Source: Gordonia amarae NBRC 15530
Lineage (GTDB): Bacteria > Actinomycetota > Actinomycetes > Mycobacteriales > Mycobacteriaceae
DNA: 64,000 nt
Direction: 5' to 3'
Assembly: GCF_000241345.1 (NCBI RefSeq)
Contig: NZ_BAED01000046.1
Span: 124,001-188,000 of the forward strand
The notes beneath the pieces were generated by a model. The model saw only the letters and a list, made by a program, of their open reading frames with translations. It did not search any database and was not told where the DNA came from. Within the stretch, counting starts at the first letter, position 1; the number at the start of each line of letters is the position of its first letter. The translations under genes were made by a program, and so were the position numbers. Shown piece after piece: positions 19,972-30,191 of the stretch.

Positions 19972-20841
19972 TCAGGCATCCGCCCCGACCGGCGGCATCG
20001 AGTCCACGACCGCCTGACGCAGGTCCTCGATGCTCACCGTGGCCGTCGCCAGGACCGCGCGCGAGGCGTCGTCGGCGGTGTCGATGATGCCGATGAGCAG
20101 GTGGTGCGCGGTGAGTACGTGATCGCCGCGCTCGCGGGCGACGTTCACCGCCCCGCGCAGCGCCGACCGGGCGTCGGACCCGAAACGCATCCGGCCACCG
20201 CGTCCGCGCGGCCCGCGCCGGCCCCGGCCACCCTCCCAGGGGCCTTCCTCGTCACTTCCCGGCCCGAAACCACCGGGACCGAAACCAGCGGGACCGAAAC
20301 CACCGGGACCGAAACCACCGGGACCACGGCGGCCGCGGCCACCCCGCCACTCTCCGGGTTCTCCTTCCGCCCCAGGTCCTTCCGGACCGCAGCCCCGGCC
20401 ACCGGGACCGAAACCACCTGGGCCGAAATCACCGGGACCGGGCCGTCCGCGGCCCCGGCGCCGGTCGCCCCGGCCGTGCGGCCGCCGGCCCCAGCCGTCG
20501 GCGAGGTCGTCGCCGAACTTGCCGCGTACCGCCTCACGGACCTTGTCCAGGTCGATGCCGATGGCGCGCAGCGCCTCCCGGTCCTCGTCGTACCGTGCCG
20601 CCGCCTCCTGCGCGGGGTCGCCGACGCCGTGCTCGGCCCGGTAGGCCGATGCCGCGGCGCGGGCGCCGGCCAGTGTCAGACCACGTTCCCCGAGCAGTCC
20701 GAAGAGCGGGGCGCGGGCGTTGCAGAGCATCCCGAGGATGAGGTGGTCGTTGCCGAGGACGCGGTGGCCCAGGTCGCGGGCCTCCTGCTCGGCGAATCCG
20801 AATATCCAGCGGCGATCGTCTCGTGTGAATCGTTCAATCAT
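19972..20841 (-). CDS. Clp N-terminal domain protein with Gly/Pro/Phe-rich insert
   Basis: 289 residues. Residues 1-110 resemble the first Clp-N repeat ('GHRVLGNDHLILGMLCN'), and 220-289 the second ('ARERGDHVLTAHHLLIGIIDT'). Between them, residues 117-219 are low complexity: Arg/Gly tracts and GPGGF/GPAGF repeats encoded by a 15-base DNA repeat near 20262-20335. There is no AAA+ ATPase domain, so this is not a ClpC or ClpB protein but a free adaptor-like Clp-N protein. Its start overlaps the stop of the HTH gene by 4 bases, so the two form an operon. Role unknown; substrate binding or sequestration is plausible. Confidence 0.75.
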   Translation of the reverse strand: MIERFTRDDRRWIFGFAEQEARDLGHRVLGNDHLILGMLCNARAPLFGLLGERGLTLAGARAAASAYRAEHGVGDPAQEAAARYDEDREALRAIGIDLDKVREAVRGKFGDDLADGWGRRPHGRGDRRRGRGRPGPGDFGPGGFGPGGRGCGPEGPGAEGEPGEWRGGRGRRGPGGFGPGGFGPAGFGPGGFGPGSDEEGPWEGGRGRRGPRGRGGRMRFGSDARSALRGAVNVARERGDHVLTAHHLLIGIIDTADDASRAVLATATVSIEDLRQAVVDSMPPVGADA

Positions 20842-21113
20842 TGTTCTGTCTCCTTCCGGCCGTCTCGGCCGGTGTCCTGTGCGTGTTTCTGATGCACGGC
20901 CTGGCGGCTGACCTGCAGAACCTCTGCGATCTGCTGCCAGCTCCAGCCCGCCCTGCGGGCGTTGGCCACCTGCACCTCCTCGAGCCGGTCGGCCAGGGTG
21001 CGCAGGGCGCGCACCGCGCCGAGCCCGCGAAGCGGGTCGTCGTCGGCGGCCAGCCGGGCGAGGGTGTCGGAGGTCTCCTCCTGGGCGGTTCCATGGCTGG
21101 GATCGTCGTGCAT
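20838..21113 (-). CDS. Small helix-turn-helix protein upstream of the Clp-N gene
   Basis: 91 residues. A helical N-terminal half ('LRTLADRLEEVQVANARRAGW') leads into 'SWQQIAEVLQVSRQAVHQKH', a clear helix-turn-helix. Proteins of this kind are often encoded beside stand-alone Clp-N proteins in actinobacteria. The stop overlaps the next start by 4 bases (ATGA). A palindrome TTGTCAA-N6-TTGACAA covers its promoter at 21143-21162, so autoregulation is likely (inference). Confidence 0.75.
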   Translation of the reverse strand: MHDDPSHGTAQEETSDTLARLAADDDPLRGLGAVRALRTLADRLEEVQVANARRAGWSWQQIAEVLQVSRQAVHQKHAQDTGRDGRKETEQ

Positions 21114-21121
21114 GGTGTCAG

Positions 21122-21162
21122 GTTATATTGACGGTCCACTGATTGTCAATAATTGTTGACAA
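21122..21162 (-). promoter_or_regulatory. Promoter with overlapping palindromic operator
   Basis: On the minus strand TTGACA (21149-21144), a 16-base spacer and TATAAC (21127-21122) form a good -35/-10 pair. The inverted repeat TTGTCAA-N6-TTGACAA (21143-21149 and 21156-21162) covers the -35 element, so a bound repressor would block polymerase. The start codon of the HTH gene is 9 bases below the -10. Confidence 0.75.
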
Positions 21163-21315: not shown

Positions 21316-21969
21316 ATGACCGCATGCCGGATAGGCATCGTGGAGGACCACACGGTCGTGATCACCGGTCTGCGCCAGTTGCTCGACGGCGAACCAGGCC
21401 TCGACATCGTCGCGGCCGCCCCGACCGTCGGCGAACTCCTGGACACCGGGCAGGGCATCGACATGGCCATCCTCGACCTGCGGCTGCCCGACGGATCGTC
21501 CCCCGCCGCCAACGTCGCCGATCTGCACGCCGCCGGCATCACCCGGGTGCTCGTGTTCACCTCCGGCGAGGAGCCGTACCTGGTGCGCACCGCCGCCCGG
21601 GCCGGGGTGCTCGGGGTGGTCAACAAGGCCGAACGCGACGCCGTCATCGTCGACGCGATCCGCACCGCGTGCCGGGGCGAGATGGTCCGGTCGCTGGACT
21701 GGGCGATGGCCGTCGACGGCGACACCGAGTTCACCGCCGCCGCACTCAGCCCCCGGCAGCGCGAGGTGCTGAGCTTGTACGCATCCGGTGAATCGGCCGC
21801 CCGGGTGGCCGCGCTCACCGAGCTGTCGACGGACACGGTCAACGACTACCTCGGCCGTATCCGGCAGAAGTACGCCGAGCTCGGCAGACCCGCATCCACC
21901 AAGACCGACCTGTACCGACGAGCCCTGGAAGACGGATGGTTGCCGTTTCCCCGGCGACGGCGCAAGTAA
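21316..21969 (+). CDS. NarL/LuxR-family response regulator
   Basis: 217 residues. The receiver domain begins 'CRIGIVEDHTVVITGLRQLL', has the phosphoacceptor Asp in 'DMAILDLRLPDGSS' and the conserved Lys in 'GVVNKAERD'. The C-terminal LuxR-type HTH reads 'LSPRQREVLSLYASGESAARVAALTELSTDTVNDYLGRIRQKY'. A strong GGAGGA precedes the ATG. It is the first gene of a five-gene overlapping operon and the only DNA-binding protein in it, so both downstream kinases presumably act through it. Confidence 0.9.
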   Translation: MTACRIGIVEDHTVVITGLRQLLDGEPGLDIVAAAPTVGELLDTGQGIDMAILDLRLPDGSSPAANVADLHAAGITRVLVFTSGEEPYLVRTAARAGVLGVVNKAERDAVIVDAIRTACRGEMVRSLDWAMAVDGDTEFTAAALSPRQREVLSLYASGESAARVAALTELSTDTVNDYLGRIRQKYAELGRPASTKTDLYRRALEDGWLPFPRRRRK

Positions 21970-23159
21970 CCGCCGGGCGGCCCGACCACGCCGCCGAACT
22001 CCGCATCGAGCGGCTGTTCTCGATCTTCGTCGGCGCCGGCTATCTGGGCTACGTGCCGCTGTTGGCCGGCGCCGTCGCCGACACCGCCCACCACACGGAC
22101 CGCTGGTGGACACCGCTGGCCCTGCTGCTGGTCTTCGGCCCGGCGATCGTGCTGCTCGTGGCCGCGCTCACCCGGCACCGGACGGTGGCCCGCTGGGCGG
22201 CCCGCGGCGCCACCGCCGGATACATCGTCGCCACCTGCACCTTCGGCCTGGCCTGGGACGGACAACCGGTCGAGCACCTGTGGTTCCCGGCCATCCCCGG
22301 TGTCGCCGCGCTGGCCGCGGCCATCACCCTGCCGCCGGGCTGGGCGTTCACCGCGCTGTTCGCCACCGTCGTCCCGGCCAACATCTACCAGCACCTCACC
22401 CGCGAGCCCGGCCACACCGACAACCTGACGGTCACCATGCTGTTCTCGTTCTCGTTCGTGCTGCTGTTCCTGGCCGCGGCGATCGTCGCGGTGCGCACCG
22501 GGCGCATCCTGGACGCGACCCGGGCCAACGCTCACGCCGAGGCGGCGGCCGCCGCGGCCGCCGACGCCCGGCGCAGCCAGCGCAGCCACATCGACGCGCT
22601 GCTGCACGACTGGGTCATCTCGACGATGCTGGCGGCCGGACGACAGGGCAACACCGACTCCGTCCGCCGGCAGGCCGCGGTCACGCTCACCAAACTCGAC
22701 TCGGGACCGATCACACTGGCCCGGGTGCCCGCGGCCACCGCGATGGCGCAACTACGCGCCGGCGTCCTCGACGTCGACCTCACTCAGGCGATCACCGCCC
22801 GCGTCGACGCCGGTGCCGTCGACCCTCCCGCCGATGTCGTCGACGTCATCGACGCCGCGATCTGCGAGGCGGTCCGCAACAGCATCCTGCACGCCGGTCC
22901 CGGCACCACCCGCACCGTCGCACTGCACATCACCGACCGCGGCATCGACGCGACCGTCGCCGACGACGGCGCCGGATTCAGCCCCGGCGACGTCCCTCCG
23001 CACCGGCTGGGCCTGGCGGTCAGCGTCCTCGGACGACTGCGCGAACTCCCCGGCGGCAGCGCCGGCATCACCACCGCCCCGGGCGAGGGCACCACCGTCG
23101 ACCTGCACTGGGCCGACCCCGAATCGTATCCGCCGCCCGGCCGCCCGGGGACGCGATGA
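21936..23159 (+). CDS. NarL-type sensor histidine kinase (module 1)
   Basis: 407 residues. Six hydrophobic segments lie in the first 190 residues, with little extracellular sequence. A coiled Ala-rich linker leads to the H-box 'HIDALLHDWVISTMLAAGRQG' (His at about 224), then the ATPase domain: N-box 'EAVRNSILHAGPG', 'VADDGAGFSPGDVP' and 'HRLGLAVSVLGRL'. It overlaps the response regulator gene by 34 bases and the next gene by 4. It is closely similar in layout and motifs to the kinase at 24223, so the two arose by duplication. Confidence 0.82.
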   Translation: MVAVSPATAQVTAGRPDHAAELRIERLFSIFVGAGYLGYVPLLAGAVADTAHHTDRWWTPLALLLVFGPAIVLLVAALTRHRTVARWAARGATAGYIVATCTFGLAWDGQPVEHLWFPAIPGVAALAAAITLPPGWAFTALFATVVPANIYQHLTREPGHTDNLTVTMLFSFSFVLLFLAAAIVAVRTGRILDATRANAHAEAAAAAAADARRSQRSHIDALLHDWVISTMLAAGRQGNTDSVRRQAAVTLTKLDSGPITLARVPAATAMAQLRAGVLDVDLTQAITARVDAGAVDPPADVVDVIDAAICEAVRNSILHAGPGTTRTVALHITDRGIDATVADDGAGFSPGDVPPHRLGLAVSVLGRLRELPGGSAGITTAPGEGTTVDLHWADPESYPPPGRPGTR

Positions 23160-24226
23160 CACGGCAGCCCGGTCCCTCGGCGCAGATCTCGACGGGCGAT
23201 GTCCGCGAGTTACTCGGCATGAACACCCGCAACGCGCACCTGGTCGCCGCGTTCTTCCTGGTCGCGCTCACGGCCCAGCTCATCGTCTCCGTCCGGAGCG
23301 GCAGCGCCCTGCTGCCCGGCCTGGTGGTGCTGGTCCTGGTCGCGCTGGCCGCCACCGGGCTGCTCGCCATCCCCGCCGATCCGCTCCCCCACTGGTACGT
23401 GGCGGCCGTCGCCATCTGCGGGCCCGTCGCCGTCTACACCTCGCTGACCGACACGCCGCTGCCGCCCACCCGCCCCGAACAGACATGGCAGCTCGGCGCG
23501 TTCACCGCGGTCACCACCTACATGTGTGTACGCGGCCGGGCCGGTGCGGCGTGGCTGGTGCAGTGCCTGGTGGCGGGCACGTTCATGCTGTGGACAGAGC
23601 TACACGGTGACGGCGCCGCACAGGGCCTGGCGATGGCCGCCCTCAACTTCGGCCCACTGTTCATGGCAACCCTGTTCGCGTTCACCATCAGTCCGGCCGC
23701 GGCGAGCATCTACGAGCTACGCCGGCGCGCCGTCGAACGCAACGCCGCCCAGGTGGCCTCCCTTGCCGCCGTCGCCGAACACGACGCACAGATGCGCGCG
23801 CTCAACCACCAGGTGCGGCCGATGCTCGAACGGATCACCTGGCCCGCCCCGCTCACCGACTCCGAACGCGACGAGTGTCTCGCGCTGGAGGCCGCGCTCC
23901 GCGACGCCCTGCGGGCACCGATCCTCGCCCACCACGACCGCACCGCGCGGGCCGCGGCCAGGGCGCGCGACCGTGGCGTCACCGTCGTGATGGTCGACGG
24001 CCACGGCCTCGACGAGGTGACCGGTCCCGCCCGCGAGGACGTGCTGGACCGGCTGGCCGACGCCCTCGACACGGTGACCGCCGGGTCGATCATCATCCGG
24101 GTTCTGCCCCCGGGCCGTAACCTGGTCGCGACCGCCGTGATCGACCCCGACTCGGGCACCGCACCCGCGGGCAACTCGACCGGGCCGGCATCCCGGGCCA
24201 CCCGACTCGAATTCGCGATGCCATGA
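23156..24226 (+). CDS. Membrane partner protein of kinase module 1 (function unknown)
   Basis: 356 residues. About five hydrophobic segments occupy residues 28-190. A helical region follows ('SIYELRRRAVERNAAQVASLAAV', 'MRALNHQVRPMLERITWP') and then an alpha/beta-looking C-terminal domain ('RDRGVTVVMVDGHGLDE', 'IIIRVLPPGRNLVATAVI'). The size and membrane layout resemble the neighbouring kinases, but I see no phosphorylatable H-box and no N or G boxes, so it could be a degenerate kinase or sensor co-receptor. It has a paralogue at 25479. Both neighbours overlap it by 4 bases. Confidence 0.7.
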   Translation: MTRQPGPSAQISTGDVRELLGMNTRNAHLVAAFFLVALTAQLIVSVRSGSALLPGLVVLVLVALAATGLLAIPADPLPHWYVAAVAICGPVAVYTSLTDTPLPPTRPEQTWQLGAFTAVTTYMCVRGRAGAAWLVQCLVAGTFMLWTELHGDGAAQGLAMAALNFGPLFMATLFAFTISPAAASIYELRRRAVERNAAQVASLAAVAEHDAQMRALNHQVRPMLERITWPAPLTDSERDECLALEAALRDALRAPILAHHDRTARAAARARDRGVTVVMVDGHGLDEVTGPAREDVLDRLADALDTVTAGSIIIRVLPPGRNLVATAVIDPDSGTAPAGNSTGPASRATRLEFAMP

Positions 24227-25482
24227 CGCCGGCCACCTCCCCCGCCCCGATGGCGGGAACCCCGAACAGTGACATCCCGAACAGCGACATCCCGATCAGT
24301 GACATCCCGATCGGTGACACCCCGATCAGCGATGATGCCGCCGAGACCCGCATCGAGCGACTGTTCGGCATCGTCGTCGGCAGCTCCTACCTCGTGTACC
24401 TGATCATTCTCAGCCCGTCGATCGTCTCGAACACCGATCTGGTCGGCCGCTGGTGGACGGTGCCCGCGGTGGCGGTGGTGTTCGGGCCGCCGTTGATGTT
24501 GCTCGGCGCCGCGATCGGGCGGCACCGGCGTGTCGCCCGACTGGCCGCGACGGCCACGGCGTACGGCTACCTCGTCGCCGGGATCACCTGGCTGCTCGCC
24601 TGGAACCACGAGTCGTCGCCGGTGACGCTGTGGTATTCGATGGTGCCGGCGTTCGCCGCGCTGGCAGCGGCGATCGTCATGCCGGCCCGGGCGACCATCG
24701 GCTATCTGTGCGCGGCGGTCGTGCTCGCCTGCACCACCGAGTACCTGGCGCGCCCCGACGACAAGGCGGGGGTGCTGCCGCTGTCGGTCGCGTTCACCCT
24801 GTCGTTCACGCTGCTGTTCGTGGCCGCCGGGGTGATGACTCTGCGGACCGCGCGTCTGCTCGACGAGACCCGCACCGGCACCTACGCGGCCGCGGCCCAG
24901 ACCGCCGCGACGCTGGCCCGGCAAGCACATCGAAGCAAAATCGATGCGCTGCTCCATGATTGGGTGATCTCCACGCTGCTGGCAGCGGGCAGGCAGGGCA
25001 ACGTCGAGAGCGTCCGGCAGCAGGCGCTGATCACCCTCGACAAGCTCGACGCCCAGCCGCTCCCGGCCACCATGGTCCCGGTACGCGCCGCGCTGACCCA
25101 ACTGCGCGCCGGGGCACTCGCGGTGGATCTGTCGCCCCGGGTCGAAACCCTGACCCGCCCCGAGGCCGCCGGGTTGGCCATCCCCGCCGAAGTCGTAGAC
25201 GTGCTCGACGCGGCGGTCAGTGAGGCCGTCCGCAACTCGGTCCTGCACGCCGGGCCGGACGTCACCCGGCAGGTGACGCTCAGGGCCGACGCCCGATCGC
25301 TGACCGTCGACGTGCTCGACGACGGCTGCGGCTTCGACCCCGCCGCGGTTCCCCCACATCGACTGGGTGTGGCGGTCAGTGTCCTGCGCCGCGTCCGCGC
25401 GCTCGACGGTGGCGCCGCGCAGGTCGTGTCGGTGCCGGGCGCGGGTACCGCTGTCCATCTGTCCTGGGTGGTGCCCGGATGA
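24223..25482 (+). CDS. NarL-type sensor histidine kinase (module 2)
   Basis: 419 residues, a paralogue of the kinase at 21936: 'TRIERLFGIVVGSSYLVYL' starts the membrane part, the H-box is 'KIDALLHDWVISTLLAAGRQG' (His at about 245) and the ATPase domain has 'EAVRNSVLHAGPD', 'VLDDGCGFDPAAVP' and 'HRLGVAVSVLRRV'. The N-terminal cytoplasmic extension is made of repeats of the type S-D-I-P-I, encoded by five copies of a 15-base unit (24261-24335), absent from module 1. It overlaps both neighbouring genes by 4 bases. Confidence 0.82.
   Translation: MTPATSPAPMAGTPNSDIPNSDIPISDIPIGDTPISDDAAETRIERLFGIVVGSSYLVYLIILSPSIVSNTDLVGRWWTVPAVAVVFGPPLMLLGAAIGRHRRVARLAATATAYGYLVAGITWLLAWNHESSPVTLWYSMVPAFAALAAAIVMPARATIGYLCAAVVLACTTEYLARPDDKAGVLPLSVAFTLSFTLLFVAAGVMTLRTARLLDETRTGTYAAAAQTAATLARQAHRSKIDALLHDWVISTLLAAGRQGNVESVRQQALITLDKLDAQPLPATMVPVRAALTQLRAGALAVDLSPRVETLTRPEAAGLAIPAEVVDVLDAAVSEAVRNSVLHAGPDVTRQVTLRADARSLTVDVLDDGCGFDPAAVPPHRLGVAVSVLRRVRALDGGAAQVVSVPGAGTAVHLSWVVPG
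24261..24335 (+). repeat. 15-bp tandem repeat in kinase 2
   Basis: Five imperfect copies of CCCGAACAGTGACAT in frame, encoding the N-terminal repeat of the kinase. Copy number could change by slippage without shifting the frame. Confidence 0.9.
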
Positions 25483-26597
25483 GGGCCCCGTGGCGCGGCC
25501 GGCCCGCCGGTGACCCTGAGAATCTCGCCGGTGACCCCGGAAACACCGAGTCGGGTGTGCGGTCCCTGCTGGGCATGACCACCCGCGCCGCGTGGGCAGT
25601 CCTCGTGCTGTTCCTGGTCTCCAAGACCGTCCAGGTGATCATGGTCTCCGGTGACGTCCATCCCCGGTGGCCGAGCATCGTGCTGCTGATCGTGCTGGCC
25701 CTGGGCGGCCTGGCGCTGCTGGCCGCGCCGGGTGACCCGCTACCGTGGCCGATCGCGGCGGCGATGGTGGTGACCGTCCCGGTGCTGCTGTATGTGGTGT
25801 TCACCACCACGCCGGCGCCGACGACCGCCCCGCAACAGACCTGGCCACTGGGGATGGTGGCGGCGACCTGCATCTACCTGAGCATCCGCGGCCGCACCGG
25901 CGCCGCGTGGGCGCTGATGATCGGGTGCACCGTGGCGTGCGTGGTGTGGACGGTCACCACCGATCAGGGGATCGGCGCGGCCGGCCGCCTCATGGCCACC
26001 ACGATCGCGGGCCTGGTGGCGGCCACCCTGTTCTCGCTGACCATCCGGCCGGCCGTCCGCAACATCTACGAACTGCGCAACCGCTCGGTCCAGTCGAACG
26101 CGGCGCAGGTGGCGGCCCTGGCCGTCCTCGAGGAGAACCGCGAGCAGATGCGGTACCTGGACGCCGAGGTGCGGCCCACCCTCAACCGGATCGCCCGGCC
26201 CGAACCGCTCACCGACACCGAACGTGAGCACTGCCGCAGGCTCGAGGAGTCGCTGCGCGACAGACTGCGGGCACCGGTCATCGCCGCCGACAAGGGTGCC
26301 TCGGGTGCCGCGGCCCGGGCCAGGGCACGCGGTGTCGAGGTGGTCATGGTGGACGCACACGGGCTCGACGACGCCCCCGCGCAGGTGCGGTCGTCGGTGC
26401 TCGCCGGGTGTGCCCGTGCGCTCGATTCGGCGGCGACGGGATCGGTGGTGGTGCGGGTCCTCCCGCCCGGGCGCGCGTTGCTGGCGACCGTCGTCATCGA
26501 CCCCGGAATCGCGGGCGCCGAACCGGTCCGGCTGGAGTTCGGCACCGACGGCGAGCCGGTCGGCCGAACGGACGATCTCGCGGGTGAACCGGCTTAA
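25479..26597 (+). CDS. Membrane partner protein of kinase module 2 (function unknown)
   Basis: 372 residues, paralogous to the product at 23156: 'SLLGMTTRAAWAVLVLFLVSKTVQVIM' corresponds to 'ELLGMNTRNAHLVAAFFLVALTAQLIV'. The conserved cytoplasmic end has 'NIYELRNRSVQSNAAQVAALAVL', 'YLDAEVRPTLNRIARPEPLTDTE' and 'ARGVEVVMVDAHGLDD'. Retention of these blocks in both copies while the rest diverged suggests a functional C-terminal domain. No known catalytic motif is visible. It is the last gene of the operon. Confidence 0.7.
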   Translation: MRAPWRGRPAGDPENLAGDPGNTESGVRSLLGMTTRAAWAVLVLFLVSKTVQVIMVSGDVHPRWPSIVLLIVLALGGLALLAAPGDPLPWPIAAAMVVTVPVLLYVVFTTTPAPTTAPQQTWPLGMVAATCIYLSIRGRTGAAWALMIGCTVACVVWTVTTDQGIGAAGRLMATTIAGLVAATLFSLTIRPAVRNIYELRNRSVQSNAAQVAALAVLEENREQMRYLDAEVRPTLNRIARPEPLTDTEREHCRRLEESLRDRLRAPVIAADKGASGAAARARARGVEVVMVDAHGLDDAPAQVRSSVLAGCARALDSAATGSVVVRVLPPGRALLATVVIDPGIAGAEPVRLEFGTDGEPVGRTDDLAGEPA

Positions 26598-26923: not shown

Positions 26924-29476
26924 TTATTCCTGCGCTATCGACTCACTGATGTTGAGCCGGGCGGCCCGCATCGCGGGGATCAGCGCACCGAGCAGACACA
27001 GCCCCACCGCGATCGTGACGAAGAGCAGCGTCGACGGCTGCGGCGAGTATTCGACGCCGACGGACGTGGTGGCCGACAGGATCTTGTCGGCCAGCCAGTG
27101 CAGCACACCGCCGACCAGGATGCCGGTCGCCGACCCGACGATCGCGACGGCCGCCGCCTCGGCGAGCACCATCCGGGAGATGAATCTGCGGGAGGCGCCC
27201 ATCGCGCGCAGCACCCCGAGTTCGCGGCGGCGTTCGATGACCGACAGCAGCAGGGTGTTGAGCAGGGCGATCGCGGCGGCACCGGACACGATCCACTGGA
27301 TCGCGACGGTGAACGCACCGGACTGCTCCACCAGTTGCTTCGACGATTCGAGAGCCTCGGCGCCGCTGTGCACGTCGACGGGTTCGCCGCCTGCCGACGG
27401 ATTCTCCTCGGCGATCCGCTCGATCGCCGCCCGCACCTGTGTGGCGTCGGCGCCGGGTGTCAGCGTCACCTGCAGGTAGGTGGCGCCGGGCCGGTCGAAC
27501 CAGTCGCGCAGCAGGTCCAGCGACATCGCGGCGGTGCCGGAGTCCATCGACACATAGTCGACGGTCGCGAGCACCGTGGTCTCGTGGTAGCCGGTGGGGG
27601 TGGCCAGCCGGACGGTGTCGCCGGCCTCGACGTCGAGGGTGCGGGCCAGCACCTTGGAGAACACCATGCCCTTGCCCGCCAGCATGGCTCGGCGGGCGTC
27701 GGCGGGCGATTTCTTCATGAACGGGGCGAGCGAGTCGGTGGTCAGCCCCTGCACGATGATCCGGGCCTCGCCGACGTTGACCGTGGCCCACTGGCCGTCG
27801 GCGACCCCGGCCACGCCCGGCACCTGCCGGATCTGCCCGGCGATGGCCGCCGACAACAGCGGGTCTGTGGGCAGTTGCCCGAGCGGCTGTGAGGCCACAT
27901 AGAAGTCGGGGTCGTCGAGCCCGTCGAGCGAATCAGACATCGAGGAGACCATGTTGGCCAGCGCCCCGGAGGTGCCCATGCCCACGGCGATGGCCACCGC
28001 GACGGTCATCAGCGTCGCCCAGGCGCGGCGCGGCGCGCGTTCGGTGTTGACGGCGGCGAGCCGGCCGGGACCGGAGAACCACCGCGCCGCCCGTACGACG
28101 AGCCACACCAGCGGACCGGTCAGCCCGAAGCACAGCAGCAGCACGCCGACGGCGTACACGGCGCCGGCCACGATCGCCGGCCGGCCCGGAATGTTGAGCG
28201 ACACGACGAACGACCCGACGATGACGACGAGCCCGGCGACTGTAGCCGCCCACCGGAGCACACCGCGGGTCGACGCCGATTCGGCCACCTCGCCCTGAGA
28301 CATCGCCTCGACGGGCGAGACCGTGAACACCGACCGGGCGGCCAGCATCGTCGCCGCGACGCACGCCACCACGCACGCCAGCACGGCGATAATCGGCGCG
28401 CTCACCGGCAGGTGGTACTGCGTCACCATGCCGCCGTGCGAGTCACCGGAACCGGCCGACACGGCAGCGCGGCCGCCGAGGATGCCGAGCGGAACACCGA
28501 TGAGTCCACCGGCCAGGCCGTACACGGCGGACTCGCCGAGCAGATCGGTCACGAGGTGGCCGCGTTTGGCGCCGAGCGCCCGCAGCATCGCCATCGCCTG
28601 CCGCCGCGAGGCCACGGCCATGTTCATCGTGTTGAACACCAGGAAGGCCGCGATCACCAGCGAGATCAGCGACACCAGGAGGGTGGCGTCGCGGGTCACC
28701 GAGGTGGCGGTCTCCATCTGCTTGGCCCGGAATCCGGGGTCGACGACCACGGCGCGGCCGTCGACGATGCGGTTGATCGCGGTGCGCAGGTCGGCCGTCG
28801 ACACCCCGTCGCGCGGCACGATGAGGATCGAGTCGAGTTTGCCTTCCTTTGCGGTGAGCCGTTGTGCCAGACCGAGATAGGCGAACACGAAGCCGCCGGC
28901 GTTGAGGCCGTCACCTCCGGCCACATCGAGCACGGTGACCCCGATCCCGTTGACGGTGGTCCGCTGACCCTTGGTCAGGCCGGTACCCGGGCCGGCGATC
29001 ACCCCGCCGGCCAGCTGCTCCTGACTGAATTCTTCTTGGCCATCGCTGCGGGACATGGCTTTTCGAAGATCACCGGACAGCGACGACACCCTGAAGTCCG
29101 AACCCAGCAGCGGCACAGACCTGTCCGCGTCACCCGGATCGGAACCAGTTGCACCAGTGGGGATCCGGGCGGTACCGCGCACCATCGGAACCACGGCCCT
29201 CGCGCCGGGCACCCCGGCCCGGATCTCGCCGGCGATCCCCGCGTCCAGACCGGCGTCGCCGATCGCGGTGACCTCCAGCTTCGCCGCCCCGCTGATCGCC
29301 GAATTGAACTGCCGCACAGACTCGGTCATCGATCCGTAGGTGCCGAGCACCGCGATCAGCAACGCCGAGGACACCACGACCACCGACAGCGAGGTGAGAA
29401 CCCGCAGCCGGTGGGTGCGCAGTTCACGCAGGTTGATCAGGCGGATCCGGGTGGCTGCCGCAAGCAGTGTGCTCAT
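26924..29476 (-). CDS. ABC transporter permease with two FtsX domains (MacB/LolC-like)
   Basis: 850 residues. One helix near the N-terminus ('RVLTSLSVVVVSSALLIAVLG'), an extracytoplasmic domain, three helices of the first FtsX block around residues 260-400, two helices near 420-470, then a second extracytoplasmic domain and a C-terminal FtsX block ('LLNTLLLSVIERRRELGVLRAMGASRRFI'). Such permeases couple ATP use to extraction or export of lipids or peptides rather than classic import. The ATG at 29476 follows the ATPase stop by 4 bases; the longer frame from 29536 overlaps it. Substrate unknown. Confidence 0.87.
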   Translation of the reverse strand: MSTLLAAATRIRLINLRELRTHRLRVLTSLSVVVVSSALLIAVLGTYGSMTESVRQFNSAISGAAKLEVTAIGDAGLDAGIAGEIRAGVPGARAVVPMVRGTARIPTGATGSDPGDADRSVPLLGSDFRVSSLSGDLRKAMSRSDGQEEFSQEQLAGGVIAGPGTGLTKGQRTTVNGIGVTVLDVAGGDGLNAGGFVFAYLGLAQRLTAKEGKLDSILIVPRDGVSTADLRTAINRIVDGRAVVVDPGFRAKQMETATSVTRDATLLVSLISLVIAAFLVFNTMNMAVASRRQAMAMLRALGAKRGHLVTDLLGESAVYGLAGGLIGVPLGILGGRAAVSAGSGDSHGGMVTQYHLPVSAPIIAVLACVVACVAATMLAARSVFTVSPVEAMSQGEVAESASTRGVLRWAATVAGLVVIVGSFVVSLNIPGRPAIVAGAVYAVGVLLLCFGLTGPLVWLVVRAARWFSGPGRLAAVNTERAPRRAWATLMTVAVAIAVGMGTSGALANMVSSMSDSLDGLDDPDFYVASQPLGQLPTDPLLSAAIAGQIRQVPGVAGVADGQWATVNVGEARIIVQGLTTDSLAPFMKKSPADARRAMLAGKGMVFSKVLARTLDVEAGDTVRLATPTGYHETTVLATVDYVSMDSGTAAMSLDLLRDWFDRPGATYLQVTLTPGADATQVRAAIERIAEENPSAGGEPVDVHSGAEALESSKQLVEQSGAFTVAIQWIVSGAAAIALLNTLLLSVIERRRELGVLRAMGASRRFISRMVLAEAAAVAIVGSATGILVGGVLHWLADKILSATTSVGVEYSPQPSTLLFVTIAVGLCLLGALIPAMRAARLNISESIAQE

Positions 29477-29480
29477 CGCC

Positions 29481-30191
<711 letters not shown>

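Follow-up and report, generated by a model that had tools for sequence, protein, structure and literature searches.

Tandem kinase-partner modules beside one response regulator in Gordonia amarae, with partners predicted to be degenerate histidine kinases

Introduction

What is a membrane protein with no readily visible kinase motif doing immediately behind a sensor kinase, and why should this pairing occur twice beside a single response regulator? The question is raised by five plus-strand genes at positions 21316-26597 of a 64,000-nucleotide stretch of Gordonia amarae NBRC 15530 (contig NZ_BAED01000046.1, positions 124,001 to 188,000; hereafter the window), which overlap head to tail in the order response regulator (R), kinase 1 (K1), partner 1 (P1), kinase 2 (K2), and partner 2 (P2). 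The textbook histidine kinase is a homodimer, and a few cases of pseudokinase partners are known. We propose that the array probably works as one signalling unit, each kinase (K) forming a heterodimer with its own partner (P) and both pairs acting on R. The support from sequences and models consists of the near-strict pairing of K and P, their joint duplication, the lack of conserved catalytic residues in P, its predicted fold, natural K-P fusions, and co-variation between the dimerization and histidine phosphotransfer (DHp) domains of the two proteins.

Results

Kinase and partner are paired, and sometimes fused

The coordinates (Table 1) and junctions confirmed the overlapping five-gene row described in the initial annotation: R and K1 overlap by 34 bases, and the K1/P1, P1/K2, and K2/P2 junctions are all 4-base ATGA overlaps. 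K1 and K2 are paralogs (194/383 residues identical, 51%; E 4e-111), as are P1 and P2 (155/318, 49%; E 5e-70), and BlastP of K1 against P1 and of K2 against P2, the two pairs tried, found no similarity. A third R-K-P unit, single in this case, lies on another contig of the same genome.

In 375 fetched loci (given L numbers below) there were 440 placements of P covering more than 60% of its profile; some genes were fetched repeatedly, and 369 modules were distinct. A full-length K was found directly upstream of P in 425 of the 440 placements, the remaining 15 consisting of six at the cut edge of a locus and nine in which K or P was matched piecewise, with K sequence present. Conversely, 11 K lacked a counted P, eight of them at edges and three with a split P. 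Considering the main match of each named locus, K directly preceded P in 80/80 (L167 having a K fragment only), and in the survey of the order, for which tables were compared by eye, all 26 K matches of at least 154 bits adjoined P, the next K-like score being 145.6. K and P form one open reading frame in 14 of the 369 distinct modules, from several genera and at least three families (e.g., L108 and L111 in one genus, and L206, L210, and L211 in two other families). One of these 14 fusions, L054, is itself broken further on, and L359, a likely further fusion in which K is matched as two pieces sharing the frame of P, was left out of the count.

The regulator and kinases as a two-component system

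K1, K2, and R carry the sequence features of a two-component system, i.e., kinase boxes, receiver residues, and a DNA-binding output. The second acidic Asp, the phospho-Asp, and the Lys of the receiver were kept in all 86 distinct R sequences, and the first acidic residue was Glu or Asp in 85 of them. Within the K family the N-box Asn and G1 Gly were invariant (369/369 each), and the G2 Gly and phospho-His were kept in 368 and 352 modules, respectively; Arg replaced the His in the other 17, of which 15 share a fetched locus with a His-bearing K. With one intact regulator beside them, two sensor pairs serving a single regulator, as initially annotated, is the natural reading of the array. The nearest named relative of K in NCBIfam is the MacS-type kinase (NF047322), matched by 48 of 49 K members at E ≤0.001; K1 and K2 themselves scored 54.8 and 47.9 bits against a curated cut-off of 300, and we do not assign them to that family.

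The partner is a predicted pseudo-histidine-kinase

The partners reached no named family in the libraries searched, in line with the initial view of the arrangement as undescribed. The best P2 matches fell under the cut-off in both Pfam (DUF2516, E 0.035) and NCBIfam (E 0.032). When the P model was compared to the PDB with VIA-align, all 17 of the rows starting at or after residue 183, among the 50 listed, were histidine kinases or kinase-like ATP-binding domains. A profile alignment of P with K extended over 269 columns (probability 95.5, E 1.5e-8), and separate comparisons of the membrane halves (E 1.9e-5; reversed controls 0.005-0.006) and of the cytoplasmic halves (E 2.2e-4; reversed controls 0.011-0.012) also matched. 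No column of P was more than 8% His among 157 modules, or more than 19% among 296, and no conserved Asn column was found; the residue aligned with the phospho-His of K is mostly Asp (197/369). Six other positions of P, Arg249, Asp250, Arg253, Arg271, Asp281, and Arg315, were kept in 362-367 of the 369 modules, and because these are nearly invariant we consider P to be still under constraint. P is thus predicted, on its modelled structure, to be a pseudo-histidine-kinase with a DHp and an ATPase-like fold that has lost the phospho-His and ATP-binding motifs. The claim that the partners lack kinase motifs therefore stands with respect to the conserved catalytic residues and falls with respect to the fold, which is kinase-like by prediction, and the early guess of a degenerate HATPase in their C-terminal domain agrees with it.

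Kinase and partner co-vary in their DHp helices

A mean-field direct-coupling analysis was conducted on the cytoplasmic parts of K and P. With 296 pairs (effective number of sequences, Meff, 206), eight of the ten top K-P couplings were DHp x DHp, a combination that makes up 9.7% of the K-P pair area, compared to 0-2 in 12 shuffles. With all 369 pairs (Meff 254) the corresponding values were 7/10, 13/20, and 17/30; six full shuffles gave 0-3 of the top 30, and when every K was re-paired with the P of a relative, at a mean K identity of 0.52, 7/30 remained. Couplings above four standard deviations numbered 12 of 1,188 pairs for alpha1-alpha1 versus 9 of 7,350 for ATPase-like x ATPase-like. When averaged by offset, the alpha1-alpha1 couplings peak at K minus P values of 3, 7, and 11, a helical period, and the central offset of 7 is the register of the K-P profile alignment; the strongest K-P couplings in the DHp helices follow the homodimer register.

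Several observations weigh against a heterodimer joined through the DHp. Half-size subsets failed to reproduce the DHp signal, four subsets giving only 4, 1, 1, and 2 DHp x DHp couplings in the top 10, the newest 73 pairs alone gave no clear DHp signal, and the DHp limits were fixed after a first look at the couplings. The P versus K profile comparisons confined to the DHp or to the ATPase-like part were weak, the DHp-only comparison having been a control. In addition, among 18 shorter P fragments excluded from the pairing count, nine had no nearby K; four of these were at an edge, and the other five (L105, L107, and three matches of 29-33 bits) are perhaps remnants.

One other arrangement to be weighed has P binding beside a K homodimer in the membrane as an accessory modulator, tuning its kinase/phosphatase activity and replacing no protomer. 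Nearly all K retain the parts needed for a homodimer, and there is a precedent in the six-helix pseudokinase RocA, which, as described in PMC7028121, interacts with CovS and acts by modulating it. However, a modulator bound side-on needs no coupling to the DHp, and the top K-P couplings fall in alpha1-alpha1 and alpha1-alpha2, at equivalent positions; moreover, the 14 fusions fix a 1:1 stoichiometry. We consider this arrangement unlikely. It is less probable again, and distinctly so, that P functions separately, as a receptor or transporter that shares the operon and is kinase-like only by resemblance, with a C-terminal domain that binds a ligand or another protein: while we do not read the six near-invariant polar residues as kinase motifs, and the DHp and ATPase-like parts of P resemble those of K weakly when compared alone, every PDB match listed for the C-terminal part was kinase-like, K-P fusions occur in several lineages, and P co-varies with the DHp of K.

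The module duplicated as a unit

Trees of K and of P from 17 chosen loci agreed for the clade of the window: in each, the two window modules paired in order with modules 1 and 2 of L066, and L042, which has one module only, fell with module 1 (supports 0.84 and 0.87). As the two trees match for this clade, the kinase-plus-partner unit duplicated together, before these genomes split; with the paralog identities given above, this bears out the initial annotation, which had named kinase plus partner as the duplicated unit. The window modules are 73-82% identical to their L066 counterparts, in the same order, versus ~50% to each other. A separate duplication is seen in L043, whose modules share 73% identity in K and 85% in P, and some Gordonia loci have three or four modules around one R. 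That the tandem duplication is recent and redundant, with no signalling meaning and only one working pair, is very improbable in spite of the independent recurrence of tandem duplication in the genus and the likeness of the L043 modules, since the window modules have diverged yet kept the L066 order and intact K motifs, and both copies have therefore been retained for long.

Distribution of the partner family

P was found in 19 of 298 genomes and 8 of 76 genera of a sample of the order (E 1e-5), in which genus g18 was listed with 19 genomes without a match and accounted for none of the 19 positive genomes, and in 36/394 genomes and 13/137 genera of a sample of the class (E 1e-3). At E 1e-20 it was present in 50/59 genomes of Gordonia, in 154/301 genomes and 21/31 genera of the family of Gordonia, and rarely in two further families (3/149 and 16/149 genomes). 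In the family of genome G537 it was present in 149/199 genomes and 62/85 genera (E 1e-10), including 99%-complete genomes of 1.3-1.7 Mb. Among the best 80 of 163 relatives the named hosts include Gordonia, Rhodococcus, Nocardia, Williamsia, Tsukamurella, Millisia, Antrihabitans, and Lolliginicoccus, and 46 of these 80 loci have the plain order R-K-P; at least two modules occur in 36 of the 325 fetched loci that contributed a distinct module. These counts do not support reading the arrangement in the window as a one-off.

K-P units were also observed on plasmids (L256-L259, from Gordonia sp. 135, Rhodococcus koreensis, and R. qingshengii), with a regulator-like gene before K in three of these four loci. 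L126, L128, and L129 have K-P modules and no R in the fetched DNA; the modules lie just downstream of genes that, judged by eye, are ribosomal-protein-like. In L046, L055, and L064 there is a regulator-like open reading frame with an N-terminal part unlike the R receiver.

Features and neighbors of the array

The features of the array and its surroundings are collected in Table 1. The FtsX-type ATP-binding cassette (ABC) exporter is convergent with the array, has homologs near the modules of L066 and L061, and may be a candidate target of the array. The palindrome upstream of R is largely conserved in L066, and it precedes the divergent HTH_23 and Clp_N genes.

Table 1. Features of the R-K1-P1-K2-P2 array and neighboring elements (window coordinates).
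Feature	Position	Strand	Description
Clp_N gene	19972-20841		
HTH_23 gene	20838-21113		
Palindrome	21143-21162		TTGTCAATAATTGTTGACAA
R	21316-21969	+	NarL/LuxR-type response regulator, 217 aa; Pfam Response_reg and GerE
R Asp54	21475-21477	+	Phospho-acceptor
K1	21936-23159	+	Membrane sensor histidine kinase, 407 aa; HATPase_c 32.8 bits (Pfam); N, G1, G2 boxes intact
K1 His224	22605-22607	+	Phospho-His codon
P1	23156-24226	+	Predicted pseudo-histidine-kinase partner, 356 aa; six membrane helices, DHp-like hairpin ~185-253, truncated ATPase-like domain ~255-356
K2	24223-25482	+	K1 paralog, 419 aa; HATPase_c 33.4 bits (Pfam); boxes intact
K2 His245	24955-24957	+	Phospho-His codon
P2	25479-26597	+	P1 paralog, 372 aa
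FtsX-type ABC exporter	26924-29536; 29481-30191	-; -	Permease and ATPase

Two further kinds of genes recur near the modules. Many Gordonia and Williamsia clusters contain or adjoin a small predicted lipoprotein gene transcribed in the opposite direction; open reading frames of this type were seen in 20 loci, some from one genome (e.g., L047:10478-11008 (+)), the one tested had no Pfam match, and we presume a resemblance to MTB12-type secreted proteins. A short stand-alone gene for a LuxR-type helix-turn-helix protein lies beside many modules (e.g., L012:4077-4451 (-) and L256:7174-7503 (+)), and none was seen beside the array in the window.

Discussion

P most likely takes the place of one protomer in the kinase dimer. 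K would contribute the phospho-His and the ATP pocket, and P would complete the DHp four-helix bundle with its other half, add a second membrane sensor, and set the kinase or phosphatase activity of K; both K-P pairs would converge on the single R, so that one DNA-binding output would integrate two inputs. Under this scheme the K-P dimer would be obligate, P would also sense, and R would be phosphorylated by both pairs.

Split histidine kinases, in which the kinase functions are divided between proteins, offer one likeness, in the K members that have Arg for His and mostly share a locus with a His-bearing K; P differs from them in keeping neither divided function. FasB-FasC-FasA of group A Streptococcus comprises two kinase-like membrane proteins and one regulator; the two proteins form a heterodimer by two-hybrid analysis, the phospho-His is carried by FasC and the working ATP domain by FasB, and one of the two is a proposed pseudokinase (PMC12675982). 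The likeness lies in a kinase-like membrane pair encoded with one regulator, no sequence relation having been looked for, whereas the proposed pseudokinase, FasC, bears the phospho-His, and P has no conserved His and no ATP site. RocA, also of group A Streptococcus, interacts with the kinase CovS and combines six putative membrane helices with a DHp and a degenerate catalytic domain; its His is kept though dispensable (PMC7028121), unlike in P, where no His is conserved and the ATPase-like domain looks strongly reduced in the model. Furthermore, K and P adjoin, are sometimes fused, and duplicate as a unit, which sets them apart from RocA-CovS as portrayed there. A K-P heterodimer acting on R would have its nearest analogues in FasB-FasC-FasA and RocA-CovS. 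In the actinomycete Streptomyces coelicolor, AbrC1 and AbrC2 are two kinases on one regulator, AbrC3, and the abstract of that study describes no kinase-like partners (PMC4428217), in contrast to K1 and K2, each of which has one. Judged from sequence, what is new relative to these cases is a partner that lacks both the His and the ATP site, in a pair that is nearly fixed in the genome, sometimes fused, and multiplied as a unit.

More tentatively, and with rather less than even confidence, we speculate that K is no longer a homodimer at all and that every kinase of this family needs a private pseudokinase. The near-invariant Arg/Asp set of P, with the Asp that mostly occupies the position of the phospho-His, would then be a new allosteric device that fixes an asymmetric dimer in which the second membrane sensor sets the output, and tandem arrays with a His-less K would mix and match halves.

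The partner family has no name, although half of the genomes sampled in one actinobacterial family and three quarters of those in another contain it, in nearly all cases next to a kinase. Should the heterodimer be real, asymmetric kinase-pseudokinase signalling would be commonplace in these bacteria, with naturally fused pairs and tandem arrays as ready material for studying how a dead half controls a working one.
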